Positions 5,824-34,731 of a DNA stretch of 64,000 bases are shown here, one piece after another. A model generated the notes under the pieces. It saw nothing but the letters and a program-made list of their open reading frames with translations. It made no database searches and had not been told where the DNA came from. The DNA is taken from IMG/VR virus record IMGVR_UViG_3300037493_003528, positions 1 to 64,000 of that record; one strand, given 5' to 3'. Each line of letters begins with the position of its first letter. The first letter of the stretch is position 1. The translations under genes and the position numbers were made by a program. The DNA comes from a virus.

Positions 5824-5894
5824 TAATGGTAGAGCTAGGACATGGCGAAAGTCGATTAGTCAAGGCTCATACAAAATCTTTAGAGAGGTGTAAA
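5824..5894 (+). promoter_or_regulatory. Structured leader of the SSB gene, with CAAGTTTAGTA motif at its 5' edge
   Basis: The 71 bases between the UvsY-like stop and the SSB ATG follow the motif at 5815-5825. They contain short complementary pieces (GAGC at about 5831 with GGCTC at about 5866; GAC/GTC around GCGAAA), so a folded RNA is possible. The leader ends in GAGAGGTG seven bases before ATG. T4 gene 32 is controlled by its own product binding a leader pseudoknot, so autoregulation here is an idea only. Confidence 0.35.
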
Positions 5895-8106: not shown

Positions 8107-8107
8107 A

Positions 8108-9160
8108 ATGAATGCTGAAAGCGTTGTTACTAAGGAAGATTTGAAAAGCATTCTGGGGGACCTGGAAAAGAGTAAGAATAAGAAATTTGACGTTTCTTTA
8201 TTATCAGATGATAACTCACCTTGTGTTGTAACAGAATGGATGTCAACAGGTTGTCTGGCGTTGGATACGATTATGGGTGGTGGGTTGCCTATTGGAAGAA
8301 TGACTGAGATCTATGGTGATAATTCAACAGGGAAATCATTGATAGCATCACAGGTTGCTGCGATTGCACAGGATGATGGAGCACTTGTTGTTTATGTTGA
8401 TACAGAATCAGCAGTCAGTTTGCCGATGATGAAGGAAGTTGGTGTTGATATTGATAAACTCATTTACTCTGCTCCAGACACAGTTGAAGAGGTTTTCGAA
8501 TTATTTTCTAGTGCTGTTGAAAGTAAGGTAAAGCGTTTCCCAAATAAACGTATGTTGTTAATATGGGATTCTGTTGCTGCAACGTCTGTGGAACAGGAAA
8601 TGGAAAATCCTTATGGCAAGGCAACCATGGGTCGTCATGCTCAGATCATCAGTCAATCAATGAGGAAGTTTACGAGAACTATATCGAAACAACATGTGTG
8701 TTGTTTGTTCCTGAACCAAACTCGAGAAAAGATTGGAGTTATGTTTGGTGACAATGTTGCTACATTTGGTGGTAAGGCTATTGGTTTTCATGCTTCTATT
8801 CGTATCCAATTGAAGATGGGTCAGAAGATAAAAACAGATGGTAAGAAAACTATTGGTATAAATAGTCGTGCTACTGTTGTTAAGAACAAGGTTGCTGTAC
8901 CATTCAAGATGGCAGAGTTACCAATATATTTTGGGCACGGTATAGATGATGCACTCGCAAGTTTCGAATATTTAAGAGTAGGAGAGTTATTGGTTCGTAA
9001 AGGAAGTTATTACACAATAGTTGGAATACAAGCAGAACCATTTACGAAGGCTGGTTGGGAAAAGTTTTATGATGATAACTATGAAAAGATCGCAGAGATT
9101 ATATCGAAAACTGATTTGATTGATAATGAAATCGAGGAATCTAGTGAGACCAACGAGTAG
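8108..9160 (+). CDS. recA: RecA-like recombinase (UvsX type)
   Basis: 350 residues from ATG 8108, which follows GAGGTATAAA; a GTG at 8096 is in frame but lies inside the previous gene. It has Walker A 'GDNSTGKS' near 74, 'VVYVDTESA' near 94, Walker B-like 'MLLIWDSVAATS' near 150, loop L1 'GKATMGRHAQIIS' and 'FLNQTREKIG' near 202. It carries out strand exchange in recombination-dependent replication, together with the neighbouring SSB, SbcD and exonuclease. The C-terminus overlaps the next gene by 17 bases. Confidence 0.9.
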   Translation: MNAESVVTKEDLKSILGDLEKSKNKKFDVSLLSDDNSPCVVTEWMSTGCLALDTIMGGGLPIGRMTEIYGDNSTGKSLIASQVAAIAQDDGALVVYVDTESAVSLPMMKEVGVDIDKLIYSAPDTVEEVFELFSSAVESKVKRFPNKRMLLIWDSVAATSVEQEMENPYGKATMGRHAQIISQSMRKFTRTISKQHVCCLFLNQTREKIGVMFGDNVATFGGKAIGFHASIRIQLKMGQKIKTDGKKTIGINSRATVVKNKVAVPFKMAELPIYFGHGIDDALASFEYLRVGELLVRKGSYYTIVGIQAEPFTKAGWEKFYDDNYEKIAEIISKTDLIDNEIEESSETNE

Positions 9161-10121
9161 TGAAGAGCCTGTTACACTAATAATTGATGGAACAAATATG
9201 GCGTATCGTGCCAAATATAAGTTTCAGTTATCAAACAAAGGTATTGATACATCAATTACATATGGTTTTATCAAGATGTTAATCCCTCTAATACGAGATT
9301 ACAATGTTAACAGCGTTATTGTAGCGTGGGATGGTGGGATACCAACATTTCGTACGAAGTTGGTACCAGAATACAAGGCAAACAGGCATATTGATGAAGA
9401 TCCTGAAGAGCGTAAGGATTTCAAGAGACAAATGGTGGAACTCCATATACATGCATTACCAGCTATGGGAGTTGTTAGTATTTACAAAGACAAAGTCGAG
9501 GCAGATGATATTATATACCATGCAGCAAAGGTATCAAGTGGAAAGGTTTTGATTGTTAGTTCTGATAAGGATTTACTGCAATGTTGCAGTGAAAGCGTTT
9601 CTGTGTTAAATCCATCTAGAGATAAGGTTTATACACCAGAATTATTGGAAGATGAGATAGGGATACCTGCTAAGGATTATATACATTGGAGAGCATTACA
9701 AGGTGACAGTAGTGATAACATATCAGGAGTTTTTGGTATAGGTGAAAAGACTGCTACTAAATTATTCAAGGAGTTTGGATCACTCAGTGGAATATGCAAT
9801 GCTGCAGATGGTTGTAATCCAGCTGGAAGATTATCTGATAAACTTGGGGATGCTGTTAAGTTGTTTGGAATGAATAGGATTAACAATAATGTAATGGCAA
9901 TGGCATTGTTTAGGGATCGCTGTGGGTGCAGATTACTGATGTATAATGAAATTAGAAACTATCAACCATTAAGTAAGGTAAGGCTCATGAATTATATGAT
10001 GAAGAACGGTTTTGCATCTTTTGTTGATACATTGCCTGGATTAGCATCAAGGTTGGTTAAACCTGCTTTGAATATTCATGAACGTTATCCAGCAATTTGT
10101 GTGGAAAGGATATCAATATGA
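9144..10121 (+). CDS. 5'-3' exonuclease, FEN/PolA-N type
   Basis: 325 residues from GTG 9144, chosen because GAGG lies seven bases upstream; TTG 9120 and ATG 9126 are also in frame. It has 'LIIDGTNMAYRA' near 12, 'VAWDGG' near 60, 'VEADDIIYHAA' near 117, 'IVSSDKDLLQ' near 137 and the helix-hairpin-helix 'GVFGIGEKTATKLFKEFG'. These aspartates form the two-metal site of FEN-type nucleases that remove RNA primers. The phage polymerase has no 5' nuclease domain, so this gene supplies it in trans. Confidence 0.85.
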   Translation: MRPTSSEEPVTLIIDGTNMAYRAKYKFQLSNKGIDTSITYGFIKMLIPLIRDYNVNSVIVAWDGGIPTFRTKLVPEYKANRHIDEDPEERKDFKRQMVELHIHALPAMGVVSIYKDKVEADDIIYHAAKVSSGKVLIVSSDKDLLQCCSESVSVLNPSRDKVYTPELLEDEIGIPAKDYIHWRALQGDSSDNISGVFGIGEKTATKLFKEFGSLSGICNAADGCNPAGRLSDKLGDAVKLFGMNRINNNVMAMALFRDRCGCRLLMYNEIRNYQPLSKVRLMNYMMKNGFASFVDTLPGLASRLVKPALNIHERYPAICVERISI

Positions 10122-10612
10122 GTGAGATAACTATTATAGGTATAGATCCAGGGAAGCATGGTGGTATAGCAATTGTCAATGATGATTTTGTGAGAGTTAT
10201 CCCAATTCCATTGGCAGGTGATGATGTTGATTTAGCTGGTATTCATACTTGGTTGTGTGAGTATGTTCCTTTTAGTAGAAAGCATAATACTGTCATTGCA
10301 TATATTGAGAAGGTTGGTGCTATGCCAAAGCAGGGAGTTACATCAATGTTTTCATTTGGTTTTACAACTGGTGCACTCCATGGTATAGTTGCAGCAATGA
10401 TGATACCACGGTTTATGGTAACACCGCAAGCGTGGAAGAAAGAAATTCTGGTTGGTACTGCAAAAGACAAGAACTCAGCGATAGAATATTGTAGGAGAGT
10501 TTACCCAAATGTTTCGTTGATGGCTACTGATAGATCCAAAACTTGCCATGATGGTATGGCTGATGCATTATGTATAGCATGCTTTGGTGTTTTACAACAT
10601 GGCAATATTTGA
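10118..10612 (+). CDS. RuvC-like Holliday junction resolvase
   Basis: 164 residues from ATG 10118, which overlaps the previous stop (ATGA). It has 'IIGIDPGKHGGIAI' at the N-terminus, 'AYIEKVGAM' near 64, 'TPQAWKKEIL' near 99 and 'DGMADALCIA' near 149: the D, E, (D) and D acidic residues of the RNase H-fold RuvC family. It would resolve replication and recombination branches before packaging. The GxxSxxSFGFTTGALHG stretch is typical of the phage branch. Confidence 0.8.
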   Translation: MSEITIIGIDPGKHGGIAIVNDDFVRVIPIPLAGDDVDLAGIHTWLCEYVPFSRKHNTVIAYIEKVGAMPKQGVTSMFSFGFTTGALHGIVAAMMIPRFMVTPQAWKKEILVGTAKDKNSAIEYCRRVYPNVSLMATDRSKTCHDGMADALCIACFGVLQHGNI

Positions 10613-13319: not shown

Positions 13320-13335
13320 GGTATATTTATTTATG
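13320..13335 (+). promoter_or_regulatory. GGTATATTTATTTATG element
   Basis: An AAGG/TATATTTA string ending in the start codon of the first tagged gene. Close copies precede 21501 (GGTATATTTATG), 26666 (GGTATATTTAATTATG), lie at 43851 and at 47855 (GGTATATTTG). It resembles the T4-type late promoter core TATAAATA, but the GG may simply be part of a ribosome binding site, so its role is open. Confidence 0.3.
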
Positions 13336-15399
13336 TCTATCATCATCACAATGAAATCTTTTAAGGGTCATAAAGGTATTCCTGGCCATCAAGGAGGATC
13401 GTTAGCTAGGAAGTATGAATCCAATGTGCAACTTGGTGAAGGTACTCAAAGTACACCACCTAGAACTGGTGATGTTCCAAAACCAATATTCGAAATACAC
13501 GATGCACGTAAATTAATGAGTAACTTTTATTCTGTAGCAGTTTGTATTCGTGGTGAAAATTTAGGTCGTATAATTGCTGTTAATGCAGATTTCAATCATA
13601 GTTATATGTTACATCAGGCAGGACTAAAAACATCGATAGATGACTGGGTAAGGTTTACTGTTGCAAAAAGAACAGATGGAGGGCAAATTTTATTGGGGGA
13701 TTATTACTTTGCTGGTCAAAAAGTAGTGCAAGGAGAAGATAAGATTTCTGCAATGAATAATATTTATATGGCTTGTGATTATCTAATAGCTGCAGGATTA
13801 TCAGATGATACACCATTGGGAATTACATCCAATTTTCGTAATATGTTGGAACTGACTGTTCATAAAGAGATAGAACTGAAATCGTTTCCTAAGCACAAAG
13901 GTATTCTTGGTCATCAGGGTGGCTCATTAGCCAGAAATGCAGTACAGGAACAACCAGTAACCAATAACAATAAAAATAAATGTCAATTTCCTGGGCAACG
14001 GCTCACGTTAATGGAGCAATTGATTTACGATGATATGACAGATCTTGGAACAGACTTCAAATATTCTACATACGATTCTTCATACACGAATCCTCCACCT
14101 GGAAGTCCTGGATTTGAATTGCGATTAATGACGAAGGTTAGTAAGATTTTACAAGAAACACCTAATAACGATTTTGTGGTGCATCAACGATATATTGGCA
14201 AAGACGGTTATTGTGAGTACGTTAAAGATGATAAGGGTGCGTACATATCATTGCCTGTTTCGAAGGATGATATGCTGTTATTCAAGGAAAAGGTTCATAA
14301 ACTTGTAAGAAACAGGGGTGAAAATATAATACGGGAGTTAGGTTTACCACCCGATCTTGATACACTGGTTAGTGAACTAAAATATACAGGTGATTTTCGA
14401 TCTTATGAATTTCAAGATAAATTGCAGAAAATGGTTGATAAAACAGATTTAACTGGTTACACGAGAGATGAGATACAATATCTCATACCGTATTATTATG
14501 AATGGAAGAATAAGGAAAAGATTGGATTACATTGGGAAGATGACTATCCTGATAATGATGTTAAAAATAAGGATTTTGACCACATGTTGGGCACGGTTGG
14601 TTACACCTTTACCGATGAATATGACTTTCAAGTGAAGCATCAGATAGCTCTTGGTAACTTGGATCCCGATTTCGTTAGTTTTCATTTATTAGCTCCTAAT
14701 CTTGCACGTCCGCAAAGTTCTGCCACTGGTAAGTGGGAATTATTACCATCGGTAATGTATCATTGCGCAACCAATGCTGGAGCTATTATGGCTACACAGT
14801 TGAAATCTCGTAGGGAATTGGGAATGAGAAATGGTACAGGTTTGGGTGGGGGAGAGGATGATACAATATCAATTGGTGTAAGTGAGGAAGTTATCAAGAA
14901 TGTCGAGCGTAGCATACACGAAGCACATGCTGTTGTGACAGGTAAGATTAAGTTTGCAGATTTGCTTCATGCTATGAAAGTTGGTGCTGGAGCAAATGGT
15001 GTACCATTCGGACTAACAACTGAGCCTGCTTGGTATCAAAATATTTTGGATATGGAAAATGGAATTGTTCCTGAAGACAAACCAGGACAATTGATAGAAA
15101 AGATATGGGATTTCTATCATCTTGATTTTGTTGGATATAGGCAAGGAGCTGGTGGTTACGAGAATCCTGTGTTTTTTGGAACAGATTATAAAGCGTTAGC
15201 AAAGTTGGATCCAACAGAGTTCAAGGTTATAAAGTTATCTCCAGCTAATCCAAATGCTAAAGGTAGTAGGATGAACTCGATGACAGAATGGCGATTGATT
15301 GGTGGTGACACTGTAAAAATGGATGAAGTTATTGATTACTACGGACCTGAAGATTATGATGAGATTTTAGGTTATTATCAGAAAGGAGTGCCTAGATGA
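13333..15399 (+). CDS. Double-tagged large protein of unknown function
   Basis: 688 residues with two copies of the Gly/His tag: 'SFKGHKGIPGHQGGSLAR' near 9 and 'SFPKHKGILGHQGGSLAR' near 184. Each tag is followed by a different domain: about 160 residues of mixed alpha/beta, then about 490 residues. The long part contains 'LHWEDDYPDNDVK', 'GKWELLPSVMYHCATNAGAIMA' and a C-terminal 'ENPVFFGTDYKAL' block. I do not recognise either domain. The internal tag strongly suggests fusion of two neighbouring tagged genes. Unlike most tagged genes, the N-terminus has an extra six residues before MKSF. Confidence 0.75.
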   Translation: MSIIITMKSFKGHKGIPGHQGGSLARKYESNVQLGEGTQSTPPRTGDVPKPIFEIHDARKLMSNFYSVAVCIRGENLGRIIAVNADFNHSYMLHQAGLKTSIDDWVRFTVAKRTDGGQILLGDYYFAGQKVVQGEDKISAMNNIYMACDYLIAAGLSDDTPLGITSNFRNMLELTVHKEIELKSFPKHKGILGHQGGSLARNAVQEQPVTNNNKNKCQFPGQRLTLMEQLIYDDMTDLGTDFKYSTYDSSYTNPPPGSPGFELRLMTKVSKILQETPNNDFVVHQRYIGKDGYCEYVKDDKGAYISLPVSKDDMLLFKEKVHKLVRNRGENIIRELGLPPDLDTLVSELKYTGDFRSYEFQDKLQKMVDKTDLTGYTRDEIQYLIPYYYEWKNKEKIGLHWEDDYPDNDVKNKDFDHMLGTVGYTFTDEYDFQVKHQIALGNLDPDFVSFHLLAPNLARPQSSATGKWELLPSVMYHCATNAGAIMATQLKSRRELGMRNGTGLGGGEDDTISIGVSEEVIKNVERSIHEAHAVVTGKIKFADLLHAMKVGAGANGVPFGLTTEPAWYQNILDMENGIVPEDKPGQLIEKIWDFYHLDFVGYRQGAGGYENPVFFGTDYKALAKLDPTEFKVIKLSPANPNAKGSRMNSMTEWRLIGGDTVKMDEVIDYYGPEDYDEILGYYQKGVPR

Positions 15400-15815
15400 C
15401 TGAAGAAAATGTAGCATTAACTGGCGTGCCGTTGAGTATTGATGCATCTGTCATAAGTTCAGGTGGTATTCAGGAAAGAGTTTTCGTTAATAGGATGCAG
15501 ATTTTAGCATTCTTTTCTCGTACGCAAGTTCGGGAAAGTGGTTTGATTGTTGATAGATTGGAAGGGATAGCCATCAGAACTCACATACCTACTAAGTGGG
15601 TAGGTAACGGTGGTGATATGTCTTTTCGCAATTTTATCATAAATTACATGTTCGATTTCAATAAGGAAAAGTTTGATGAAAATAATGAAAAACATTGGGA
15701 TTTTATATTAAAGATATTCCAACCTGGATTTACACGTTTCTGGATACAGGTATTTTCAGAGAAAGAATTTTCAGTGCTTATGGAACTAAATCCAGATTGG
15801 GATCTTAAGGAATGA
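15396..15815 (+). CDS. Hypothetical protein between tagged genes
   Basis: 139 residues, joined to both neighbours by ATGA overlaps. It lacks the Gly/His tag. 'GNGGDMSFRNFIINYMFDFNKEKF' and 'FQPGFTRFWIQVFSEKEF' suggest a compact alpha/beta protein. No family recognised. It could be a chaperone or immunity partner for one of the adjacent tagged proteins; that is speculation from position only. Confidence 0.6.
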   Translation: MTEENVALTGVPLSIDASVISSGGIQERVFVNRMQILAFFSRTQVRESGLIVDRLEGIAIRTHIPTKWVGNGGDMSFRNFIINYMFDFNKEKFDENNEKHWDFILKIFQPGFTRFWIQVFSEKEFSVLMELNPDWDLKE

Positions 15816-16603
15816 AACAACCAATTGTCATAGTTTATAAAGGTGGTAAAGGTAGTGGATTCAAGAACCATCTTAGTAAACCAGGACACTATGGTGGCTC
15901 ATTACCACGTGGTGAGATGCAAGAACAGAAATCTGAACGGTTTATTGTTCCAAAAGAGGCGTGGTATATTGATGAAAGTAGACCAAATTGTAAAAGAGTT
16001 TATGTTCAGGCATGGGTTGATTCGTTGTCAGAAAGAGGTTGGGATGTTCGTGATATCATAGAAAAATCGTTACATGCTGGTGTATTACCACAAGCTTATT
16101 CAAGGGAATATGTCCCTGATTGGGGTGAAGTGACTGAAAAGGAATACACTGTTTGGAGAGCTGGTAAGTTGGATAAGAAGGATGAAGGTATATATTTTGG
16201 TCCAGATATGGAAGAGATAAGAATGTATTCAACAAATAATGGTGCTGATATAAAAAGTTACACAATAAAATTACATAATCCAAAAACATATCTTGATAAG
16301 AATGAAGCCATGTTGGATTTGTTTCCGAATTGTGTATCTGAGGCAAAGATAGAAAAGAAGCGTCGAGAGTATGGTTATGATTGGAATGCAACTGTTAAGT
16401 TGATGCCACATTTGTGGGAAATTCAAGATGCAGGTTATCGTGGTGCAGATGTTGTTAAAGTTAATAGGCAATTGGATGCTCGTATTGCTAAAGCACTAAA
16501 TAAGCGTGGTTATGATTCAATGGTTTTACTTAAACCTGAACCGCCATGTTCACGAGAAATAATGTTGATTGATCCAATAAAGAATTTGGTGCAAAATGAT
16601 TGA
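15812..16603 (+). CDS. Tagged ADP-ribosyltransferase-like protein
   Basis: 263 residues. The tag is a variant: 'KGSGFKNHLSKPGHYGGSLPR' around 13-33. The C-terminal half has 'YTVWRAGKLD', 'GIYFGPDMEEIRMYS' and 'IKSYTIKLHNPKTYLD', and ends 'LNKRGYDSMVLLKPE' then 'REIMLIDP'. The order (R in the first strand, YS after a short helix, final strand with an acidic residue) follows the ART fold seen in phage polyvalent proteins and toxins. The catalytic glutamate is not certain. Probably modifies host proteins, if active. Confidence 0.6.
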   Translation: MKQPIVIVYKGGKGSGFKNHLSKPGHYGGSLPRGEMQEQKSERFIVPKEAWYIDESRPNCKRVYVQAWVDSLSERGWDVRDIIEKSLHAGVLPQAYSREYVPDWGEVTEKEYTVWRAGKLDKKDEGIYFGPDMEEIRMYSTNNGADIKSYTIKLHNPKTYLDKNEAMLDLFPNCVSEAKIEKKRREYGYDWNATVKLMPHLWEIQDAGYRGADVVKVNRQLDARIAKALNKRGYDSMVLLKPEPPCSREIMLIDPIKNLVQND

Positions 16604-17615
16604 TGTTATTGATAACATAAAAAGCATGTTGGTAAATCCAGATAATGCTGAATTTATTGAGCGTATATTATTATCAGGAATGAAATTTAATGGTAATAAA
16701 CCTATCACTATTACCATGAAATCTTTTAAGGGTCATAAAGGAATTCCTGGTCATCAAGGCGGTTCATTAGCTAGAAACGAAACTTGGCAATCAGGTAAGA
16801 CTGAAGCGCAAAAGATAAAAATATTAACCAATGGAAAATTAACTCCTGATTCTAATGTTAGATACATTAAGGGAATCACAAAAAGCATGATTTGTAATGT
16901 GGCTGGTAATGGACGAGTTATTATCAAAGGTGATGATGTTTTGTCCAGTGTTCTTAATCCAATTGCGATGGTTGCCAATGAAAAGTTGGCATATGATGTT
17001 TCTGTGGCTATGGGATTTGATAGATTGGTTCCAACAACAGTTGTCAGAATGTTGGATGAGGATATCGTGGAAGATATTAGTCAAAGTACAGGTACTCATC
17101 GTAATCCAGTTGTGTATAGGAAGGGTAACGTTGTTTCTATGCAGGAATGGATAGAAAATTCAATTGCACCATATGAGATTTACCATCAACAATATTCAGG
17201 TACATTACCAATTCCTGGTGCGTATGCAGAAGGTGAGTTTATCAAGATGGGTGTATTGGATTCTATAATAGGTAATGGTGATAGACATTCTAATAATTCT
17301 GTATTTTTGGTTGATCAAAAGACTGGTGAGATAACAAATGTTTATGCCATAGATCATAACTTGATAAGAGGTTTGTATAATAATACTATTGATGCTGTTA
17401 GAAGAGCAAAGCAAAGTTATTCAGAATCAAGTGGTAAATTTAATTTTGATTTTGTTATACCAAATTCTATGTGTGATACATTAAGAGAAAAGTGCAGCAC
17501 TGATGGTGAAATATATAATTTATTCAAATCTGATGGTGATACAAGATATATGATGGATAGGGTTGATGATTTGTTGCGAATATATGGTGATGGGAAATTT
17601 CTCGATAGAATCTGA
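16596..17615 (+). CDS. Tagged HipA/PI3K-like kinase
   Basis: 339 residues. The tag 'SFKGHKGIPGHQGGSLAR' begins near residue 42 after an N-terminal extension; an internal ATG at 16716 would start exactly at MKSFKG. Downstream are 'GRVIIKGDD', 'ANEKLAYDVSVAMGFDRLVPTTVVRML', the catalytic-loop-like 'DSIIGNGDRHSNNSVFLV' near 225 and 'YAIDHNLIRG' near 250. The GNxDRHxxN ... DH arrangement is that of HipA and phosphatidylinositol-kinase-like enzymes. Such kinases phosphorylate proteins or lipids; the substrate is unknown. Confidence 0.7.
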   Translation: MIDVIDNIKSMLVNPDNAEFIERILLSGMKFNGNKPITITMKSFKGHKGIPGHQGGSLARNETWQSGKTEAQKIKILTNGKLTPDSNVRYIKGITKSMICNVAGNGRVIIKGDDVLSSVLNPIAMVANEKLAYDVSVAMGFDRLVPTTVVRMLDEDIVEDISQSTGTHRNPVVYRKGNVVSMQEWIENSIAPYEIYHQQYSGTLPIPGAYAEGEFIKMGVLDSIIGNGDRHSNNSVFLVDQKTGEITNVYAIDHNLIRGLYNNTIDAVRRAKQSYSESSGKFNFDFVIPNSMCDTLREKCSTDGEIYNLFKSDGDTRYMMDRVDDLLRIYGDGKFLDRI

Positions 17616-17669: not shown

Positions 17670-18251
17670 ATGAATAAGTTGATACTGAGAAGGAAATATT
17701 TTAGAGGGCACAAGGGTCGTCCAGGATTTGAAGGTGGCTCAGTGCCACGCAGTGCTGGTAAGGTCATACCAGATTTTAAGGTTACTGGTAGAGATGAAAA
17801 TGGTATGAGTGCTGGTGATAGACACAGATTTGAATTGACGAAATACTTGCGTCAGGTGAAGAAGGTTGGATCCCGCAGTAGTACCGAATCAGTTGTTTGT
17901 GATTATGGTCATTTCTCTTTTCCTAAAGGTGAACTACCAGCTAAATATAAACTTGGTAAATCGAAAGAATGTTTTAGGAATGCTATGCGATTGGCAGAGC
18001 AGCACCCTGAATTAACTTATGTAGAGGGATTCGCATTCCCTGATTTTATGGATATTCCTATACATCATGCGTGGTGTGTTGATAAGAATAATTTAGTGAT
18101 AGATAATACGTGGCCTAAGATAGGAACAGTTTACAAGGGTATACGATTTGATATTGATTTTATCTACAAAGTTCAAATGGAAACTGAGACGTATGGTGTT
18201 ATTGATTTTAGTAGTAAGTTTTTTCGTGATGCATATCCACCAAAGGTATAA
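17670..18251 (+). CDS. Tagged papain/transglutaminase-like protein
   Basis: 193 residues. A divergent tag 'FRGHKGRPGFEGGSVPR' lies at 11-27. The rest shows 'SKECFRNAMRLAEQ' near 98-111, 'PIHHAWCVD' near 130-138 and 'VIDNTW' near 143-148. A Cys at the start of a helix, then His-Ala-Trp on one strand and Asp-x-Thr on the next is the catalytic order of the papain-like/transglutaminase superfamily. It may be a protease, amidase or crosslinking enzyme; substrate unknown. Confidence 0.6.
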   Translation: MNKLILRRKYFRGHKGRPGFEGGSVPRSAGKVIPDFKVTGRDENGMSAGDRHRFELTKYLRQVKKVGSRSSTESVVCDYGHFSFPKGELPAKYKLGKSKECFRNAMRLAEQHPELTYVEGFAFPDFMDIPIHHAWCVDKNNLVIDNTWPKIGTVYKGIRFDIDFIYKVQMETETYGVIDFSSKFFRDAYPPKV

Positions 18252-18260: not shown

Positions 18261-18392
18261 ATGAAACTAATTGTAAAAACAAAATCGTTTCCTGGACATA
18301 AGGGTATTATAGGTCATCAAGGCGGTTCGTTACCTAAGAATTTAGAAATGGAGGTAAGAAATGAAAATAACTTTAAGAACAAAATCTTTTAA
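18261..18392 (+). pseudogene. Orphan tag: 43-codon reading frame that is almost only the Gly/His tag
   Basis: An ATG at 18261 opens a frame with 'KTKSFPGHKGIIGHQGGSLPK' at its start and only about 20 further codons before a stop at 18390-18392. It runs into the start of the next tagged gene at 18361, whose GGAGG ribosome binding site it contains. Either the payload was deleted or this is a free tag peptide. It is too short to have been found by usual ORF cut-offs. Confidence 0.6.
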
Positions 18393-18762
18393 GGGTCATA
18401 AAGGAATTCCTGGTCATCGGGGTGGATCGTTATCACGAGCGGATGCTGGTAGCACTGATAAATTATTAAGAGATGAACAGCATGAATTAGAGCGTAGTTT
18501 TGACTACTTGAGAACAAATACAAATAGTTGGGCAGTACGAGATAACATAAAAACATTATCAAACAAATATCTTGATACAAAACTTTATACTATCGATAAG
18601 AAGACTGCACTAAAGAACGTTGCCAAATTACAGAAAATTATGAAGTTGGATATGATGGATAACGAGGATTTTGTAATTTTAGATATAGCATCAGAGTTTG
18701 ATGGTAATGGTTATGGTGAGTATCCTGACTACATGAATGAAGGGGAAGAGGACAACAATTGA
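18361..18762 (+). CDS. Tagged protein, helical payload
   Basis: 133 residues starting directly with the tag ('SFKGHKGIPGHRGGSLSR' at 9-26). The payload is helical and charged, with 'DEQHELERSFDYLRTN' and 'KTALKNVAKLQKIMK', and an acidic tail. No family recognised. A strong GGAGGTAAGA site precedes the ATG. The stop overlaps the TTG start of the next gene. Confidence 0.65.
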   Translation: MKITLRTKSFKGHKGIPGHRGGSLSRADAGSTDKLLRDEQHELERSFDYLRTNTNSWAVRDNIKTLSNKYLDTKLYTIDKKTALKNVAKLQKIMKLDMMDNEDFVILDIASEFDGNGYGEYPDYMNEGEEDNN

Positions 18763-19322
18763 AACTAGTAATAAGAACTAAATCGTTTCCTGACCATAAA
18801 GGTATTCCTGGACATCAAGGAGGAAGTCTTCCAAAAATTCAAGGAATGCAAAGAAATCTTCCGTTCCCGGAGATAACTGTTGAGCAGGATCAAAATCATT
18901 TTACTGTTCCATGTGAAGGGACAGAGGACATTGATTACAGCAATGCTCAGGATTGGATATGGCACGAGAATGGTTCAAGAATGGTACAGCCAAATTGGTT
19001 CCATGAAATAAAGAGACCGACACCTGCTGAAATGGAACAGATTAAGACAATCGTTAAAGCAGAGCAGGGAAGTTTGGATCAGGAGCATAATACCAATTCT
19101 GCATATGATTCCTATGAATATGTAAGACTTTGGAAGGGTAAGGATTACATAGCTCAGAGACGTATAGTGGTTAGCAAGGATTATCCAACCGACGTAATAG
19201 CGTGGACTGATGGATTATTCTGCAGATGTCCTTATTGTAAGGGACCTACGCTCGAGCCTGATTGGGAGAAAGTGTATAATGCATGCGACAGTTGTGGTAT
19301 TGAATACATTCTTAAGGAATGA
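18759..19322 (+). CDS. Tagged protein with C-terminal zinc ribbon
   Basis: 187 residues from a TTG start that overlaps the previous TGA; the start is fixed by the tag 'SFPDHKGIPGHQGGSLPK' at 9-26, which is positioned as in its paralogues. The C-terminus has 'CRCPYC' and 'ACDSCG', two CxxC pairs about 22 residues apart, a zinc ribbon. The middle has 'YEYVRLWKGKDYIAQRRIVV'. Function unknown; DNA, RNA or protein binding is possible. Confidence 0.65.
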   Translation: MKLVIRTKSFPDHKGIPGHQGGSLPKIQGMQRNLPFPEITVEQDQNHFTVPCEGTEDIDYSNAQDWIWHENGSRMVQPNWFHEIKRPTPAEMEQIKTIVKAEQGSLDQEHNTNSAYDSYEYVRLWKGKDYIAQRRIVVSKDYPTDVIAWTDGLFCRCPYCKGPTLEPDWEKVYNACDSCGIEYILKE

Positions 19323-19480: not shown

Positions 19481-21007
19481 ATGCTACAAACAACAGAAAT
19501 TAGCAGCATAGGAGAATTGGTAAAAAGCATATCTATACAGGTAAGTGGAACTAGTCAGTTTAGTAAGTTCCAAAGAATGTATAAGAATGATCGAATAGCA
19601 TTCGTGCATGATATTATGCCTAGATTAGGAAAAAGCATAACACCTTATCAGGAGGAGATATTAGGTTACTTTGATGAGGGAGAAAAGAGAGTAGCTGTAA
19701 GAGGACCACACGGTTTGGGAAAGACTTTCTTAGCGAGTATTATCGTGCATCATGGTTTACTTACCAGTGAGGAGGATTGCAAGATTCCCTGTACAGCTAG
19801 TGCATTTAGGCAGTTGGAAAAGTATTTGTTTCCTGAGATCAAAAAGAGCTCAACGTTTATAGCGTGGCCTGCTGTAGGAAGGCAACCTTATACGAGTTCT
19901 GGTGGAGGAAATTGTGAAATGCATCAAATGTCCATCAAGCTATCTGATGGCATGGTAGAAGCGTTTGCTGTAGCAAGCGATAACTATGCGTATATCGAGG
20001 GTGCTCATGCACGACGACTAATATATGTGTTTGATGAGGCAAAGACTATTCCAGATGGCATGTGGGATGCTGCTGAAGGAGCATTCTCCACAGAAGGCAT
20101 AGCATCAGACAACAAAGAAGACTACGCAAATGATAGTGAATGCTATGCATTTGCTATCAGCACTCCTGGTGCTCCATCAGGACGATTCTATGATATACAT
20201 ATGCATAAGGAAGGCTATGAGGACTGGAGAGTAAGGCACGTTACTCTCGATGAAGCTATTAATGCTGGTCGCATAGGAAAAGACTGGGCAGAGCGTAGAC
20301 TTAAGCAGTGGGGAGAAACGTCTAGTACGTACCAGAACAGAGTCCTAGGAGAGTTTGCAGACATGTCAGAGGAAGGAGTTATACCTTTATCTCATATAAA
20401 CATGGCAGTGGCTCGCTGGAAGGCTTGGGACGTGTCTGGACGACCTGTTTTAAAGGGTAGGAGAAGTATAGGAGTAGACGTGGCTAGGATGGGTGAAGAC
20501 AACACCGTACTGGCGTGCAGGGAGGCATCCACCGTCACAAACGTCCATACTTTTACAAAACTTCCGACCACGGCAGTTGCAGGACATGTCAAGCATTATT
20601 CGTCAGGTAGAATTATTAATATAGAAATGGATGGTGGACTTGGTGCAGCTGTATATGATATGCTCCACGAAGAAGGTGTGCCAATGCTTAAACCTATAAT
20701 AGTAAATGGCAAGACGCTTAAGCGAGATAAGTCTGGAGAGTTAAAGTTTGCTAACGTGCGTGCTGCTATGTGGTGGAATATGCGTGAACTACTGGATCCA
20801 GTAAATGGAGAAGGTGTTATGCTTCCACCTATTATTAAGTTGATTGGAGACCTGTCCGCACCGAAGTGGGAGATAAAGAAAGATGCTACTGTGTTCTTGG
20901 AGGATAAGAAATCCATACATGAGAGAATTGGTAGATCTACGGATTATGGAGATGCTGTGTGTCTGGCATTTTGGGAAAGCGGTGGCGGTGGAGGTGTGGT
21001 ATTTTAG
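19481..21007 (+). CDS. terL: Terminase large subunit
   Basis: 508 residues. ATPase: Walker A-like 'VRGPHGLGKTFLAS' near 70, Walker B 'LIYVFDEAKTIPDGMW' near 180, coupling motif 'AISTPG' near 226. Nuclease: 'GRRSIGVDVARMGEDNTVL' near 325, 'IEMDGGLGAAVYDML' near 383 and 'STDYGDAVCLAF' near 485 supply the RNase H-fold acidic residues. It cuts and pumps phage DNA into proheads. It is unusual in sitting inside the cluster of tagged genes and about 24 kb before the portal. Codon use is somewhat less AT-biased than the flanking tagged genes. Confidence 0.92.
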   Translation: MLQTTEISSIGELVKSISIQVSGTSQFSKFQRMYKNDRIAFVHDIMPRLGKSITPYQEEILGYFDEGEKRVAVRGPHGLGKTFLASIIVHHGLLTSEEDCKIPCTASAFRQLEKYLFPEIKKSSTFIAWPAVGRQPYTSSGGGNCEMHQMSIKLSDGMVEAFAVASDNYAYIEGAHARRLIYVFDEAKTIPDGMWDAAEGAFSTEGIASDNKEDYANDSECYAFAISTPGAPSGRFYDIHMHKEGYEDWRVRHVTLDEAINAGRIGKDWAERRLKQWGETSSTYQNRVLGEFADMSEEGVIPLSHINMAVARWKAWDVSGRPVLKGRRSIGVDVARMGEDNTVLACREASTVTNVHTFTKLPTTAVAGHVKHYSSGRIINIEMDGGLGAAVYDMLHEEGVPMLKPIIVNGKTLKRDKSGELKFANVRAAMWWNMRELLDPVNGEGVMLPPIIKLIGDLSAPKWEIKKDATVFLEDKKSIHERIGRSTDYGDAVCLAFWESGGGGGVVF

Positions 21008-21037: not shown

Positions 21038-21481
21038 ATGAAGCTAATATTCAAATCGTTTCCTAATCCTGGACATGAAGGAATCCCTGGACATCAAGGT
21101 GGGAGCCTTCCACGTGGTGAATCATCAAATAAGAAGACATTTAGGCACGGAACAAGTATTGAAAGTGCCGATAAAATTAGAACTGAGGGAATACGTAGAA
21201 ATAGTGCTAGTATAGGTGACAGAGCATCTTCAGTTTATTTTATGCAGGACAAAAGTGCTATTCGTGATTACGTCACAGACAAATACAACGAAAGTGATGA
21301 AGGATTTGCGATTGTTGAATTTGATGTACCAGAGGAATTTACTGACTCCATTTTGGAGGATGAAGAAGAAGGTGACTCCTTCAGAATGGAGAAGGATGTT
21401 CCTACAGAATGGATAAGAAATATTGAATACTATGATGCAAAAGGAAAATTCTCGAAGAGAATTGACATCACGAAAGTTTAG
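21038..21481 (+). CDS. Tagged small ADP-ribosyltransferase-like protein
   Basis: 147 residues: tag 'SFPNPGHEGIPGHQGGSLPR' at 6-25, then 'TFRHGTSIESADKIRTEGIRR', 'SSVYFMQDKSAIRDYV', 'FAIVEFDVPEEF' and 'DVPTEWIRNIEYYD'. A basic/His-Gly-Thr-Ser first strand, a helix with 'G I', a second strand followed by a helix, and a final 'vP.e.I..ie' is the layout of small ART/PARP-like domains. Catalytic residues remain to be confirmed. The stop codon lies in a CAAGTTTAGTA-like motif. Confidence 0.55.
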   Translation: MKLIFKSFPNPGHEGIPGHQGGSLPRGESSNKKTFRHGTSIESADKIRTEGIRRNSASIGDRASSVYFMQDKSAIRDYVTDKYNESDEGFAIVEFDVPEEFTDSILEDEEEGDSFRMEKDVPTEWIRNIEYYDAKGKFSKRIDITKV

Positions 21482-21500: not shown

Positions 21501-21584
21501 ATGTGGATAGATGTTATGTTCGAGATCGCGATTGTTATTCTGGCATTCCTGGGAATCGTGATCATAAACAAGAGGAAGAAATGA
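21501..21584 (+). CDS. 27-residue single-pass membrane protein
   Basis: ATG 21501 opens a 27-codon frame with a hydrophobic core 'MFEIAIVILAFLGIVII' and a basic end 'NKRKK'. It is a clear single membrane helix with N-out/C-in charge bias. It follows GAGGG and its stop overlaps (ATGA) the start of the metallopeptidase gene. Tiny membrane proteins next to toxins are often toxins or regulators themselves; here the role is unknown. Confidence 0.55.
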   Translation: MWIDVMFEIAIVILAFLGIVIINKRKK

Positions 21585-22441
21585 GAATAGTGTTCAAGTC
21601 GTTTCCTGACCATAAAGGTATTCCTGGACATCAGGGAGGGTCAGTAGCACGTGGTGAAGATTCTAGTATTAATACTGTTTTTAGTAAATTTTCTTATGCT
21701 GATTATACAAAATCCAGTGATAAATCGTCTTTTATTAAGAATAACGTTAATAAAATATTTTCTGTCCTAGGAATAAAATCGAATGTTGAGATTGTCGATG
21801 ACAAAAAGTTCAGTGAGATATTTCACGATATTAAGGTATCTGCTGGCGCCACAATATTAGATGTTCATGCAGGATATCATGCTAAAAATAACATTGTGTA
21901 TTTGAGACAGAGCAGGTTGGATGCTGTTAAAAGTAAGAGTGATTACAGATTATACAAAAATGTTATCTATCATGAAATAGGACATGCTTATCATGCTGAT
22001 ATTCTGGGAATAAAAGTGCAGGATAAGGGTGAATATGGCTCAGGGTGGTGTGAGGACTTTGCAGATGATTTTGGAAATTGGATAGGATATTCAGAACGGT
22101 TGCATAATGTTTATACTGGAATATCCGTACCTATTAATTCTAGGGAACTTGCTAAAGCCACTGATTACAATTTACAGAGTTCTTTTGATGAGATGTTAAA
22201 GAGACACGAGAGAACAAAACAATTTGTTGGCAGATTTCCTTGTGCCAGGAGGTGTAAAATGAAGAAGATACTAAGAAAGACAACAGATAAAACAACAGTG
22301 ACAGAATTTGTGCCAGAAAATGAGAAAGACGTAAAGTTATTATCAGAGTTGGTTATAACTGGTAAAATACCTATAGACGTGGCTCACAAAAGAAAATACA
22401 AAAATGTTGTGAAGTGGAATAAAAATGAAATTAATATTTAA
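21581..22441 (+). CDS. Tagged zinc metallopeptidase-like protein
   Basis: 286 residues from ATG 21581, where the tag begins ('SFPDHKGIPGHQGGSVAR' at 7-24); longer frames upstream belong to the small membrane gene's region. It has 'IYHEIGHAYHADILG' at 129-143, an HExxH zinc site, followed by 'GWCEDFADDFGNWIG' near 153, which gives the third ligand. The last 60 residues form a separate basic piece that starts with a perfect ribosome binding site and ATG at 22259, so a second product is likely. Substrate unknown. Confidence 0.75.
   Translation: MRIVFKSFPDHKGIPGHQGGSVARGEDSSINTVFSKFSYADYTKSSDKSSFIKNNVNKIFSVLGIKSNVEIVDDKKFSEIFHDIKVSAGATILDVHAGYHAKNNIVYLRQSRLDAVKSKSDYRLYKNVIYHEIGHAYHADILGIKVQDKGEYGSGWCEDFADDFGNWIGYSERLHNVYTGISVPINSRELAKATDYNLQSSFDEMLKRHERTKQFVGRFPCARRCKMKKILRKTTDKTTVTEFVPENEKDVKLLSELVITGKIPIDVAHKRKYKNVVKWNKNEINI
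22259..22441 (+). CDS. Possible internal-start product of the metallopeptidase gene
   Basis: In the same frame as the metallopeptidase, AGGAGGTGTAAA precedes ATG 22259; the same GAGGTGTAAAATG string starts the SSB gene. The 60-residue product (MKKILRKTTDKTTVTEF...) would be small and basic. It may once have been a separate gene whose upstream stop was lost, or a second product from the same mRNA. Confidence 0.4.
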   Translation: MKKILRKTTDKTTVTEFVPENEKDVKLLSELVITGKIPIDVAHKRKYKNVVKWNKNEINI

Positions 22442-23153
22442 GACTTTCCCTAATCCTGGACATGAAGGAATCCCTGGACATCAGGGAGGTTCCCTCCCTC
22501 GAGGTGAATCTGCACCAAAACAAGGTAATGATGATGATGCTAAAATAAAAGCAAGTATGTCAAAGTTAGTAACTGTAGATCTTGCAACCATGGAAACTGA
22601 TCCCCCAAAGAAATATTGGATTACTCCACAAAGGGAAATAGTATCAGACACTGTAACAGTTGATCAGTCTCATGCCTTAATGCTTGCTAGACTTATATAT
22701 AGTAATCCAGAATTGGCAAAAGAAAATGGTTTAGATATAAATATTGATGACATCAAGAAAATGTTGGTGAATGATACATATGAGGATACTATATTAGAGG
22801 ATAAGGCTTATCATAATAGATACATGAAGGTGGAATTGAGAACAATTTCATTAAAGCACCCTGAAAAAGCTAACACCATTAGTATATTTACTGGAGAACT
22901 TAATAGTCCTGCATTAAAGAAAATTCAGGATAGGATGGATAAAGGTATGTTGCCAGCTACATATAAAACACCTGCAGGTAAGAAAGAATATTATAATATA
23001 GTATTGAGTGGTTTTTCTGGTGATAAAGTTGTGACGATTAAGACTAATTATAGTGAGCTTATGACATCCACTGGATTCTTTATACCAGAAGGTGATAATG
23101 CATATGAGGCAGGAACACTAAAACATATGAGGAAGGCTAGGTTGATAAAATGA
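22425..23153 (+). CDS. Tagged protein of unknown function
   Basis: 242 residues: tag 'TFPNPGHEGIPGHQGGSLPR' at 6-25, nearly identical at DNA level to the tag of the small ART gene at 21038. The payload is alpha/beta with 'PPKKYWITPQREIVSDTVTVDQSHALMLARLIY' (split 60-92) and 'PATYKTPAGKKEYYNIVLSGF'. The two LEDKAYxxR-like pieces here and in the zeta-type gene are probably chance. No family recognised. It overlaps both neighbours. Confidence 0.65.
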   Translation: MKLIFKTFPNPGHEGIPGHQGGSLPRGESAPKQGNDDDAKIKASMSKLVTVDLATMETDPPKKYWITPQREIVSDTVTVDQSHALMLARLIYSNPELAKENGLDINIDDIKKMLVNDTYEDTILEDKAYHNRYMKVELRTISLKHPEKANTISIFTGELNSPALKKIQDRMDKGMLPATYKTPAGKKEYYNIVLSGFSGDKVVTIKTNYSELMTSTGFFIPEGDNAYEAGTLKHMRKARLIK

Positions 23154-24106
23154 GACTAATTTTCAGAACAAAATCGTTTCCAGATCCAGGTCATAGAGGT
23201 ATTCCAGGTCATAGAGGTGGCTCATTACCACGTAACGAATCTGCATCAGCACCTAAAGAAACACCTAAGGATAAAAAGAAAGTTGAAGAGCCTGCATACA
23301 CTACTGTTAGGACACCAGAATTATCTAAACAGTATAATGACATATTTAAGGGTAGTAAGGTGAATCCTGAAGGTATTGATACAATGGCTGTATACAAAAA
23401 TCCTGATGGAACATGGACTAAGGAAAGACAAGCGTTGCATGACAAAATAATTGATAGCTTTTTTGCTGGTAATACACCTATATTTCGTGCTGGAGAAACA
23501 CCAGTTTCGTATATTCTAGGTGGTGGTCCTGCATCTGGTAAGTCTACACTCGTAAAATCAGGTTTAGTGGATTTACCAAAAAATATGGTTTTTGCTGCTG
23601 CAGATGATATTAAACTTATGCTACCAGAATTTCAATTGTCTATGAAGATTAAGGATGTTGACGGTGCTATTTATGTACATGAGGAATCGTCATATATATC
23701 TAAGGAAATAATGAAAAGATCTGTAGCAGAAGGTTATAATATGCTTATGGATGGAACAGGTGATAATAATATTGAATCATTATCCAAAAAAGTTGTGGAT
23801 ATGAGAACATCAGGTCAGCCAGTGATAGGTTTATACGTAACTTGTGATACTGACATAGCAATTTCTAGGAGTTTGTCTAGAGCCGAGAAAACAGGTCGTT
23901 ATATACCTGAATCTGTTTTACGTAGTAATCACAAATCGGTGTCCATGATTTTCGAGGACATAGTTAAAGCTGGAATTATGGATTCTATATCTTTATACGA
24001 TACGTCTAGTGGTAAAGCTATTGTTATAGCAAGAGCAGTTAAAACAAAATTGGAAATTTTGGATGATAAAGCCTACAAGAGATTTCTTGCTAAGGCAAAG
24101 GAGTAA
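23150..24106 (+). CDS. Tagged zeta-toxin-like kinase
   Basis: 318 residues: tag 'SFPDPGHRGIPGHRGGSLPR' at 9-28, a linker, then 'YILGGGPASGKSTLVKSG' near 122-139 (P-loop), 'FAAADDIKLMLPEF' near 146, 'HEESSYISKEIMKRSV' near 172 and 'LMDGTGDNN' near 190. This is the zeta-toxin/PezT arrangement; zeta enzymes phosphorylate UDP-N-acetylglucosamine and poison wall synthesis, though phage members may have other substrates. No epsilon-type antitoxin is seen next to it, and the next gene is too short and unrelated. Confidence 0.75.
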   Translation: MRLIFRTKSFPDPGHRGIPGHRGGSLPRNESASAPKETPKDKKKVEEPAYTTVRTPELSKQYNDIFKGSKVNPEGIDTMAVYKNPDGTWTKERQALHDKIIDSFFAGNTPIFRAGETPVSYILGGGPASGKSTLVKSGLVDLPKNMVFAAADDIKLMLPEFQLSMKIKDVDGAIYVHEESSYISKEIMKRSVAEGYNMLMDGTGDNNIESLSKKVVDMRTSGQPVIGLYVTCDTDIAISRSLSRAEKTGRYIPESVLRSNHKSVSMIFEDIVKAGIMDSISLYDTSSGKAIVIARAVKTKLEILDDKAYKRFLAKAKE

Positions 24107-24108
24107 AA

Positions 24109-24282
24109 ATGGCACTAACATCTAAGGAAATAGAACAAATTGCTAAGGACGAAATGAGGGGTGTTAAACCGACAATTAAGGGTAAGGATGCCGATGAATT
24201 TAGGAAAAGGTTTGCTGTTGACATGGCATTAGCTAAGGAGAAGGGTTGGATAATAGAATTACCATTTGAGATACCTGAATAG
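24109..24282 (+). CDS. Small basic/acidic protein
   Basis: 57 residues from ATG 24109 after GGAGTAAAA, three bases after the zeta-type gene and three bases before the next gene. Helical, with 'EIEQIAKDEMRG' and 'DADEFRKRFAVDMALAKEKGWIIE'. It could be a partner of the zeta-like kinase by position. No family recognised; too short for standard ORF cut-offs. Confidence 0.6.
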   Translation: MALTSKEIEQIAKDEMRGVKPTIKGKDADEFRKRFAVDMALAKEKGWIIELPFEIPE

Positions 24283-24284
24283 TT

Positions 24285-24947
24285 ATGTTAGTCATTGCTT
24301 ATTACAATAATGATGGTTATAGAAACATGGTCTGGAGACTTGCACAGTTGTGTAATTCTTGGGGCATTCCTTTTAGGTCATACTGCGATACATGGCTTAG
24401 GAAACAACCTGAATATAGGGCAAATATACCAATATTCTCTGCTAATAAAGGTGCAGGTTACTGGGCATGGAAGCCACTAATTATTTTGGATGCATTAAAG
24501 TCATCTGATGAAGTTGTGTACTTAGATTCATCAGTGGTTCCAGTAGATAAAGAAACTATTTGTGATTTTGTTAAATTTACAGATAGACTATGTTCTATAG
24601 AATATGCTGATGTAAATAAGATATGGACTAAGCGTGCATGTTTTGTTGGTATGAATTGTGATTATGAGAAATACTGGGATGCTAAACATGTGTGGGCAGG
24701 TGTTGTATCTGCAAAAGATTCTAGCATTGTAGAGGAATGGAAATATTACTGTTTGCAATATGATATTATTTCCGATTCTCCATGCGAAAATAACTTCCTA
24801 GAGTTTAAAGATCACAGACACGATCAGAGTATACTGGCAAATATTATTATAAAACATAAACAAAAATACCTAATTAACACAAAATTTTTGGATGTTAATA
24901 ATTATAGTCATAGACCTAAACCAAATAGATTTGAGGAGATGGTATGA
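24285..24947 (+). CDS. Glycosyltransferase-like protein
   Basis: 220 residues. 'GAGYWAWKPLIILDALKSSDEVVYLDSS' (split 63-90) matches the G.GYW.WKP...L......D.v.YlDsg signature of a GT-A-like family common in capsule loci, where the YLD aspartates would bind the metal/nucleotide sugar. 'HDQSILANII' near 184 is a further conserved block. It heads a short operon with two methyltransferases. Confidence 0.65.
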   Translation: MLVIAYYNNDGYRNMVWRLAQLCNSWGIPFRSYCDTWLRKQPEYRANIPIFSANKGAGYWAWKPLIILDALKSSDEVVYLDSSVVPVDKETICDFVKFTDRLCSIEYADVNKIWTKRACFVGMNCDYEKYWDAKHVWAGVVSAKDSSIVEEWKYYCLQYDIISDSPCENNFLEFKDHRHDQSILANIIIKHKQKYLINTKFLDVNNYSHRPKPNRFEEMV

Positions 24948-25558
24948 CAGAGAATTTCTTCTCTTACGTATGGGATGGTGGTTATTATGAGGGAAATCCA
25001 TTGGATTATTTTAGTGTATTACACGCAACTTATTTGCGTTGTGTAAAGTCATATGTTAAATCTGATACTACAGCTTTGGAAATAGGTCCTGGTAAGGGTG
25101 CGTGGACATCATGTATGCTAAGTGCTAAGGATGTATGGTGCATTGATGCTTTACCAGTAGAAGACACACAGTTTGCATATACAAATATTGATAACATTAA
25201 ATATGTTCATGTTCACGATTATCTTATGCAGGAACTACCTGATAACTATTTTAGTTATGCATTTTCATATGGTTGTTTGTGTCATGTACCATTTGAGGGA
25301 ATAGAAGAGTATGCCAGAAATATGTTTGCAAAACTGTTGAGTGGAGCAGATGTTTTTTGGATGGTTGCAGATGATGAAAAGCACCGTATAGTAACTGGTA
25401 CTGGTATACCAGATGTTGGTCCAGGTCATTGGTATAATGCTGGCATAGAAAGAACTTGTAATATGCTAAAAGAAGTTGGATATCAAATTGTAGAGTCTGA
25501 TGTGAAAACTGTTTCACGAGATCCTGTCATATATTTCAAGAAGGCAAGTTTAGTATAG
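24944..25558 (+). CDS. Class I SAM-dependent methyltransferase
   Basis: 204 residues. 'TALEIGPGKGAWTSCML' near 44 is the SAM-binding motif I, 'VWCIDALP' near 66 motif post I, and 'FSYAFSYGCLCHVPFEGIEEYARNM' (split near 104) motif III region. The target could be a sugar or a small molecule. Coupled by ATGA to the preceding glycosyltransferase-like gene. The stop lies in the left arm of a palindrome. Confidence 0.75.
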   Translation: MTENFFSYVWDGGYYEGNPLDYFSVLHATYLRCVKSYVKSDTTALEIGPGKGAWTSCMLSAKDVWCIDALPVEDTQFAYTNIDNIKYVHVHDYLMQELPDNYFSYAFSYGCLCHVPFEGIEEYARNMFAKLLSGADVFWMVADDEKHRIVTGTGIPDVGPGHWYNAGIERTCNMLKEVGYQIVESDVKTVSRDPVIYFKKASLV

Positions 25559-25575
25559 TTATACTATACTAAATA
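25545..25575 (+). promoter_or_regulatory. CAAGTTTAGTA motif inside a perfect palindrome
   Basis: TTTAGTATAG (25549-25558) pairs with CTATACTAAA (25564-25573) around TTATA; the motif's TTTAGTA forms the left arm. No T-run follows, so it looks like an operator or RNA hairpin rather than a terminator. The acidic-protein gene starts 13 bases later. Confidence 0.5.
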
Positions 25576-25587
25576 GGTAGGTGGATC

Positions 25588-25827
25588 ATGGACACGAAAT
25601 ATTTTAGTTTTGATGAATGGCTTGCTGCAGTTGATAATATAATTAGTGAAGAATTGGGTGGTTTAACATCAATGGATCTCCCAGATAAAAATTATGTTGA
25701 TTGGTACTCTGATGGCATCTCTCCAGAATTAGCTGCAAATCGTGCTATTTCAGATAATTCTGATTTGGATGATGAGGATGAGGATGAGGATGAAGACGAT
25801 AATGATTATGAACGTGAAAGGTTATAA
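25588..25827 (+). CDS. Small acidic protein
   Basis: 79 residues. The N-terminal 55 residues are ordinary, with 'YFSFDEWLAAVDNIISEELGG'; the C-terminus is a run of alternating D and E ending ERERL. No family recognised. Acidic tails of this kind mimic nucleic acid or interact with basic proteins. Preceded by AGGTAGGTGG. Confidence 0.6.
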   Translation: MDTKYFSFDEWLAAVDNIISEELGGLTSMDLPDKNYVDWYSDGISPELAANRAISDNSDLDDEDEDEDEDDNDYERERL

Positions 25828-26474
25828 TGCCTTACATAATGTCTGAGTCGTGCCAAATTAGAAATTTGACATCTATATATGAGCTATATTTTCCTGATAA
25901 GGTCGATGGACTATTTGTTGATGTTGGAGCACATAACGGTTATGAGTTTTCCAATACATGGGGTCTGGCACAAGCAGGGTGGTCGGGAATTTGTGTAGAG
26001 CCTGTACCAGAATTAGCTGCAGATTGTAGGAAGTTGTATCTTGATAATAGTAAAATTACTACATTGGAAATGTGTATAGGTAATTTTACAGGAGAGGTAA
26101 AATTATACTTAACAGGCAATCCTACAATTGATGAGGAAACAGTTAATATGAGTCCGTGGGATTGTGTATATGATAAAAACAATTTTATGATGTCTCCAAT
26201 TTCTACTCTTGATGATGTACTCATCAAAAATGATATAACTTCCAAATTTCAAGTTTTGTCAATAGATGTAGAGGGTGCTGAATTACATGTTCTAACTGGT
26301 TTTACGTGGCAAATGTGGATGCCTAATATGATTATTATTGAGACTCACGAAAACAATCCAGACAGTAGAAAATCATATCACGTTGATGCGATAAATAAGT
26401 GGTTTGATGGAACAATATACCACAAAATACAGATTGATGGTTTAAATGCAATATACGTTTTGGATGTAAAATAA
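25827..26474 (+). CDS. FkbM-family methyltransferase
   Basis: 215 residues. 'GLFVDVGAHNGYEFSNT' near 30, 'GICVEPVPELAADCRKLY' near 52, 'ISTLDDVL' near 128 and 'VLSIDVEGAELHVLTGF' near 145 are the classic FkbM blocks, including the VDVGA..G SAM loop and the IDVEGxE strand. FkbM enzymes methylate hydroxyls of sugars or polyketides; with the neighbouring sugar transferase-like gene, O-methylation of a glycan is likely. Confidence 0.85.
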   Translation: MPYIMSESCQIRNLTSIYELYFPDKVDGLFVDVGAHNGYEFSNTWGLAQAGWSGICVEPVPELAADCRKLYLDNSKITTLEMCIGNFTGEVKLYLTGNPTIDEETVNMSPWDCVYDKNNFMMSPISTLDDVLIKNDITSKFQVLSIDVEGAELHVLTGFTWQMWMPNMIIIETHENNPDSRKSYHVDAINKWFDGTIYHKIQIDGLNAIYVLDVK

Positions 26475-32095: not shown

Positions 32096-32104
32096 GTTAT
32101 ATAA

Positions 32105-33471
<1,367 letters not shown>

Positions 33472-33475
<4 letters not shown>

Positions 33476-34362: not shown

Positions 34363-34374
34363 GAGGTATATATA

Positions 34375-34727
34375 ATGGCTTTGTTTTCAAAGGTGCTACT
34401 AAGTGGGTCTACTAATGGGAAGGGAATATTGATAACTGGAACAACGTCTGGTTCTGCAACAACTATTCATACTGCTTGTAGTGGGACTGCTAATATGGAT
34501 GAAATTTGGATATATCTTGTAAATCAAGAAGCAACTGAGGAAATTTTAACTACGGTGCAATTCGGGAGCGATGCTACAGCAGATGAAATTGCTGTGAGTG
34601 TACCAGCTGCTGCAGGTTTACAATTCGTAGTTCCAGGATTGGTACTAAATAATTCCAACATAGTAAAAGCATTTGCTGCAACTGGAAGTAAGGTAGTTGC
34701 GCACGGATTTGTTAATAGGATAACTGA

Positions 34728-34731
<4 letters not shown>
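34375..34731 (+). CDS. Fibre-associated beta protein, paralogue 1
   Basis: 118 residues, start MALFSKVLLSGSTNGKGILI. The layout is shared with the gene at 35906: LxSGSTxGKGI, IHT, DEIWxY, a beta stretch, then 'GLxxVVPGLxL' and 'GxVNRI'. Strong AGGAGGTATA site. Each copy directly follows a collagen-like gene, so it is likely the cap or a partner of that fibre. Confidence 0.7.

Follow-up and report, generated by a model that had tools for sequence, protein, structure and literature searches.

A tag-only reading frame in a phage contig and crossovers at tag DNA in related phages

The window analysed here, i.e. the whole stretch of 64,000 nucleotides, is part of the 78.8-kb virus record IMGVR_UViG_3300037493_003528 of IMG/VR, and positions refer to this window unless stated otherwise. 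At 18261-18392, on the plus strand, it contains a reading frame of 43 codons (hereafter the orphan), with its ATG at 18261 and a TAA ending at 18392, coding for the product MKLIVKTKSFPGHKGIIGHQGGSLPKNLEMEVRNENNFKNKIF. The first 26 residues of this product, encoded by 18261-18338 (+), correspond to a complete copy of a tag, MKLIVKTKSFPGHKGIIGHQGGSLPK, which appears to be a short protein module placed at the start of, or between the domains of, many unrelated cargo proteins. The remaining 17 codons run, in a frame other than that of the tagged gene that follows (18361-18762), through a few bases, the ribosome-binding site (RBS; GGAGG at 18350) and the first codons of this gene. The initial annotation had described the frame as almost pure tag running into the next tagged gene, in agreement with the 26 of 43 codons taken up by the tag and with an overlap of 32 nt between the end of the frame and that gene. 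The tag is separated from the RBS of the next gene by only about 11 nt, and no payload lies behind a frameshift there. A DNA profile of the tags, with the orphan itself in the training set, scores this copy with E=1.2e-17, and the orphan peptide is 81% identical to the tag of the gene at 18759 (E about 1e-12), so that a chance resemblance can be dismissed. The motif is nearly intact, with a core proline changed to isoleucine. An open frame with a nearly intact motif implies that the orphan is either recent or used, and its 26 tag codons carry too little power for a selection analysis to tell these two apart.

In total, the window contains 14 tag copies in 13 frames, all on the plus strand. The gene directly behind the orphan (18361-18762) codes for 133 aa and is followed by a gene for 187 aa (18759-19322) with cysteine pairs near the C-terminus that look zinc-ribbon-like by eye. 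Upstream of the orphan lie a gene for 193 aa with a divergent tag, RRKYFRGHKGRPGFEGGS (17670-18251), a gene whose tag is internal, starting at about residue 40, and whose payload is PI3/4-kinase-like (16596-17615; Pfam PF00454, E=1.9e-5, just below the cut-off; PADLOC PDC-M03A, 9e-6), a gene with an ART-like payload (15812-16603; PF18760, E=2e-4, below the cut-off) and the GSG-class tag KGGKGSGFKNHLSKPGHYGGS, and a gene for a 688-aa protein with two tags at 13366 and 13891 (13333-15399), in which a Pfam search named no domains. The large terminase subunit gene (19481-21007, +) is adjoined on both sides by clusters of tagged genes. Behind it are found a gene for 147 aa whose payload is homologous to tagged proteins of the related genomes G002 and G003 (21038-21481), a gene with a weakly metallo-protease-like payload (21581-22441; phrog_87, E=0.012), a gene for 242 aa (22425-23153) and a gene with a zeta-toxin-like payload (23150-24106; PF06414, E=7.8e-23). 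The last two tagged genes, at 55153-55809 and 56416-57066, occupy two variable slots.

In order to assess how alike the tags are at the DNA level, we compared 600-bp windows centred on the motif. Similarity between tagged genes did not go beyond the tag, or beyond tag, RBS and start in some pairs, and covered only about -33 to +40 nt relative to the motif; outside the tag, the payloads of the tagged genes of the window did not match each other. This bears out the earlier observation that the tags are more alike than their payloads, with homology stopping at the tag borders. The further claim of nearly identical tag DNA holds for the pair 18792/21608 (95.5% identity over 44 nt) and for the pair 16731/18394 (an exact run of 33 nt), but was overstated for the tag at 55186, which is 80% identical to 18792 over 90 nt and 85% identical to 21608 over 47 nt. 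Identical codons among the tags were in modest excess (567 versus 494 expected from codon usage; 7 of 1000 simulations). When codons were shuffled within columns among tags having the same residue, tag pairs with a run of at least 10 identical codons were expected 0.07 times and seen twice (p=0.002). Thus, the tags of the window carry DNA haplotypes that are common to unrelated payloads beyond codon composition. The 5' end of the gene at 18361 is a mosaic: 39 nt comprising RBS, start and first codons are 92% like the gene at 56416, and the next 51 nt with the tag core (motif 18394) are 90% like the gene at 16596; these two genes have no detectable match to each other. A PHI test on 19 third positions of the window tags was not significant (p 0.17-0.68), so that the window alone is no proof of recombination. 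Maximum-descent triplets took in unalignable upstream DNA and were not counted as proof.

Among the relatives identified by their terminase (44-64% terminase identity), a gene-by-gene comparison of the contigs revealed a syntenic core. The variable intervals filled by tagged genes lie between the terminase genes, downstream of the large terminase and in two slots (55153 and 56416). G008 has other tagged genes in both slots, G006 has one in the second slot alone, and the core genes on either side adjoin directly in G004. Much of the gene turnover in the lineage involves whole tagged genes and occurs at gene boundaries rather than at tags. The class of the tag is genome-specific, with KSFPxHKGIPGHQGGSLP in the window, G003 and G006, GGxGSGNFGHAGRPGxVGGS in G001, G002 and G004, and a mixture in G008. 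For 66% of the tags, versus 16% after shuffling, the closest other tag comes from the same genome. Co-evolution with a genome-specific receptor could account for genome-specific tag types in place of conversion. The ART-like protein encoded at 15812-16603 carries the sole tag of the other class in the window (KGGKGSGF...), and its gene is perhaps a recent import from a phage of the GSG class.

Wider scans of IMG/VR phages returned hundreds of tags, so the family is widespread. A tblastn search with the short tag as query gave no matches, for which the low-complexity filter is perhaps responsible. The motif strings were absent from the literature text searched, which covered neither figures nor most subscription papers, and the novelty of the tag is provisional. 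A Pfam search of 96 tagged proteins named MuF, ADP-ribosyltransferases, portal, DUF2213, topoisomerase IB, zeta toxin, CdiA-C and PBECR3. MuF (PF04233) was matched by 8 of the 96, all from relatives, and by none of the tagged window proteins searched. Since the family mixes head proteins with effectors, the tag most likely acts as a signal by which proteins are packaged into the head or attached inside it. The fusions to MuF, portal and DUF2213 domains in relatives and the neighbourhood of the terminase suggest that virions may carry the tagged proteins and deliver them to the host.

The initial annotation had proposed homologous recombination at the tag and, as a check, an alignment of relatives in search of breakpoints clustering at tag DNA. 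Over independent close pairs, with a set repeating the same contigs many times left out, homology ended within 30 bp of a tag in 5 of 37 cases versus 0.89 expected by circular shift (p=0.0028), which corresponds to about three events, a small number, in metagenome assemblies. In one of these comparisons, the crossover could be resolved to about 11 nt. The contigs L059 and L069 (G019 and G020) have flanks that are 97.5-98.6% identical, and L069 is identical to one gene of L059 upstream of its tag and through half of it, and identical to the neighbouring gene of L059 from there on. The switch lies in about 11 shared nt, AACTTCGGTCA, removes about 0.67 kb and joins the start of one gene to the payload of its neighbour. 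As both flanks have their own 1.5-2.5% of differences, L069 represents a separate strain and a same-read chimera is unlikely; an assembly error at the junction is a residual concern. In G015 and G016, a MuF region and the tag behind it are identical, and identity ends about 10 nt past the tag, where 1.6 kb of different payload follow. Homology between G010 and G011 on the one hand and G012 on the other hand likewise ends at tags. Near 29599, G011 has the motif GDVEGHPFRGNQWT where G012 (41693-41766) has the tag GGAGSGNFGHAGRPGEVGGS, and GDVEGHPFRGNQWT is possibly a parallel tag class. The proposed clustering was thus found, and tag DNA is a crossover site in related tag-bearing phages; for the window itself, the common haplotypes and the mosaic at 18361 favour recombination, and the PHI test was not significant. 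We infer that the same crossovers occur in this phage.

The phage codes for a recombination set which, judged by sequence similarity, is T4-like. It comprises a gp32-like single-strand DNA-binding protein (5826-6836), an SbcD-like nuclease subunit (6895-8106), a UvsX/RecA-like recombinase (8096-9160; PF00154, E=1.4e-60), an exonuclease (9120-10121) and a RuvC-like Holliday junction resolvase (10097-10612), all on the plus strand, as well as a UvsW-like helicase at position 67550-68899 of the contig. With the tag copies and the UvsX-, gp32-, SbcD-, RuvC- and UvsW-like genes, both substrate and machinery would therefore be at hand. As each genome holds many tag copies, homologous recombination between them can link the beginning of one cargo gene to a different gene's payload with the reading frame kept, as seen in related tag-bearing phages, and the process would probably be driven by the phage's own UvsX-type machinery.

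We hold, with moderate confidence, that the tag DNA serves as an exchange joint and that the orphan was once the beginning of a cargo gene, which has since had its payload deleted or exchanged. The orphan would thus probably be a remnant left after the loss of one cargo. The initial annotation had regarded such remnants as a product of recombination at the tag itself, which does not work: a crossover between direct repeats yields one tag with a payload and never a payload-less tag, as one tag is removed together with its payload and none is left over. A crossover between tags therefore did not produce the orphan directly, and a break must be assumed where its tag ends on the 3' side. Breaks at this edge do occur, as seen in G015/G016. 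After such a break, the payload may have been deleted, or a downstream cassette of RBS, tag and payload may have arrived in its place behind the orphan tag. The event itself was not seen, since no close relative of the 18.3-kb locus was found by searches with the 18361 protein, by megablast against phage records or among the terminase relatives; the protein search gave no relatives carrying the 18361 protein. A DNA profile search across the 78.8-kb contig did not reveal other decayed or partial tag DNA as scars. We rejected the idea of the orphan as a recent tandem copy of the neighbouring tag, its core being closer to 18792 and 55186 than to 18394. In an improbable extension of the exchange-joint reading, the tag would work on two levels, as a protein sorting signal and as the DNA crossover site of an exchangeable effector arsenal, and a payload-free tag would act as an empty landing site at which homologous recombination can capture a new tagged payload.

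Alternatively, selection on the protein motif together with inheritance by duplication might explain the likeness of the tags with no special recombination at the tag, the orphan being an ordinary deletion remnant. The non-significant PHI test, the modest size of the codon excess and the frequent gain and loss of whole genes at gene boundaries are in line with this explanation. We judge it rather unlikely in view of the crossover inside the tag in L059/L069, the enrichment of breakpoints at tags and the haplotype runs beyond column composition. A second possibility, which we regard as improbable, is that the orphan is a working tag-only peptide under selection, e.g. a decoy, a spacer or a regulator of cargo loading. 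The start codon, the frame and almost every residue of the tag are preserved and the start lies 9 nt past the stop of the preceding gene, where translational coupling is possible; against this, the RBS is weak (-3.9 kcal/mol), the tail is set by RBS and start of the next gene and the core proline is lost. Such a frame is also almost alone among about 220 tagged frames of many phages, the one other payload-poor case being L190 with 25 aa after its tag. This tag lies on the minus strand near 880, and the gene is likely frameshifted or broken. It is very improbable that orphan and next gene belong to a single protein with two tags, either interrupted by an indel from sequencing or assembly or made through programmed frameshifting. 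A +1 slip at TTT-TAA in the overlap would fuse the frames, and proteins with two or three tags are known from this set, but successive tags in the 220 frames are at least 125 aa apart and here would be about 33 aa apart, the gene at 18361 has the strongest RBS among the starts examined (-10.6 kcal/mol), and a two-tag protein broken by an indel is without precedent in this set.

The swapping of effector modules is known in phages, and the joints are seldom identified at the base level. Here, a protein tag which probably sorts cargo would double as the DNA joint, so that exchanged products would remain in frame and retain the signal. A joint of this kind offers a testable route by which phages may renew their cargo against bacterial defences, and the tag could be a handle for spotting such cargo in metagenomes. 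The internal proteins of T4 carry a short N-terminal capsid targeting sequence that sends unrelated proteins into the head for ejection. By description, the tag resembles it as a short N-terminal element common to unrelated proteins; to our knowledge, the T4 sequence is not known as a recombination joint. Orphan pieces at Rhs/CDI loci are C-terminal toxin cassettes, whereas the orphan described here is the N-terminal constant part. At these polymorphic toxin loci, shared sequence permits the replacement of payloads, and partial copies are left behind (PMC3482391).

The MuF polymorphic toxins of temperate phages combine a conserved delivery-associated region with variable effector domains (PMC5576092). 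The order MuF, tag and payload in G015/G016 is similar, and the C-terminal parts of the tagged proteins vary likewise, with unrelated payloads that include a zeta toxin and an ART-like domain. In contrast to the MuF toxins, the constant part in the window is the 26-residue tag and not a MuF domain, there are many tagged genes per genome, some of them with several tags, and the joint of exchange lies within the tag DNA. In phages and conjugative elements, polyvalent proteins are described, in the parts of the source consulted, as multidomain proteins linked to the capsid, with domains of the ART, zeta-toxin, PBECR and metallopeptidase types and with fusions to MuF and portal proteins, and cassette recombination is raised there as a possibility (PMC5512222). 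The tagged family shares with them, as far as these parts go, the ART, zeta-toxin and PBECR payloads and the fusions to MuF and portal proteins, but the same parts contain no short glycine-rich tag. In L050 (1654-3495), a phage portal protein has its tag near residue 470, behind the portal domain (Pfam 48-399).

Several further features were noted. The large terminases of six relatives are 110-280 aa longer than that of the window, the extra sequence lying before window residue 220 and being absent here; in three tested, Pfam names no intein or nuclease in it (window 19481-21007 compared with L030, L033, L036 and others). The gene at 47164-47832, after one for a 653-aa protein, codes for a protein that is conserved in the head region and has its cysteines in a MuF-like pattern; its structure gave no PDB match, so the likeness to MuF rests on this pattern as seen by eye. 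The counterparts in G004 (70904-72100) and G001 (24087-26192) have N-terminal extensions, and in G008 (41467-43509) the 47164-like protein is preceded, as a fusion, by a tagged region that weakly matches 2H-phosphoesterase. Myo-inositol-1-phosphate synthase-like and thymidylate synthase-like genes are present at 75130-76215 of G000 (12131-13216 of L003) and at 43897-45009 of the window, and several proteins encoded at 27584-36268 contain collagen-like G-x-T repeats.
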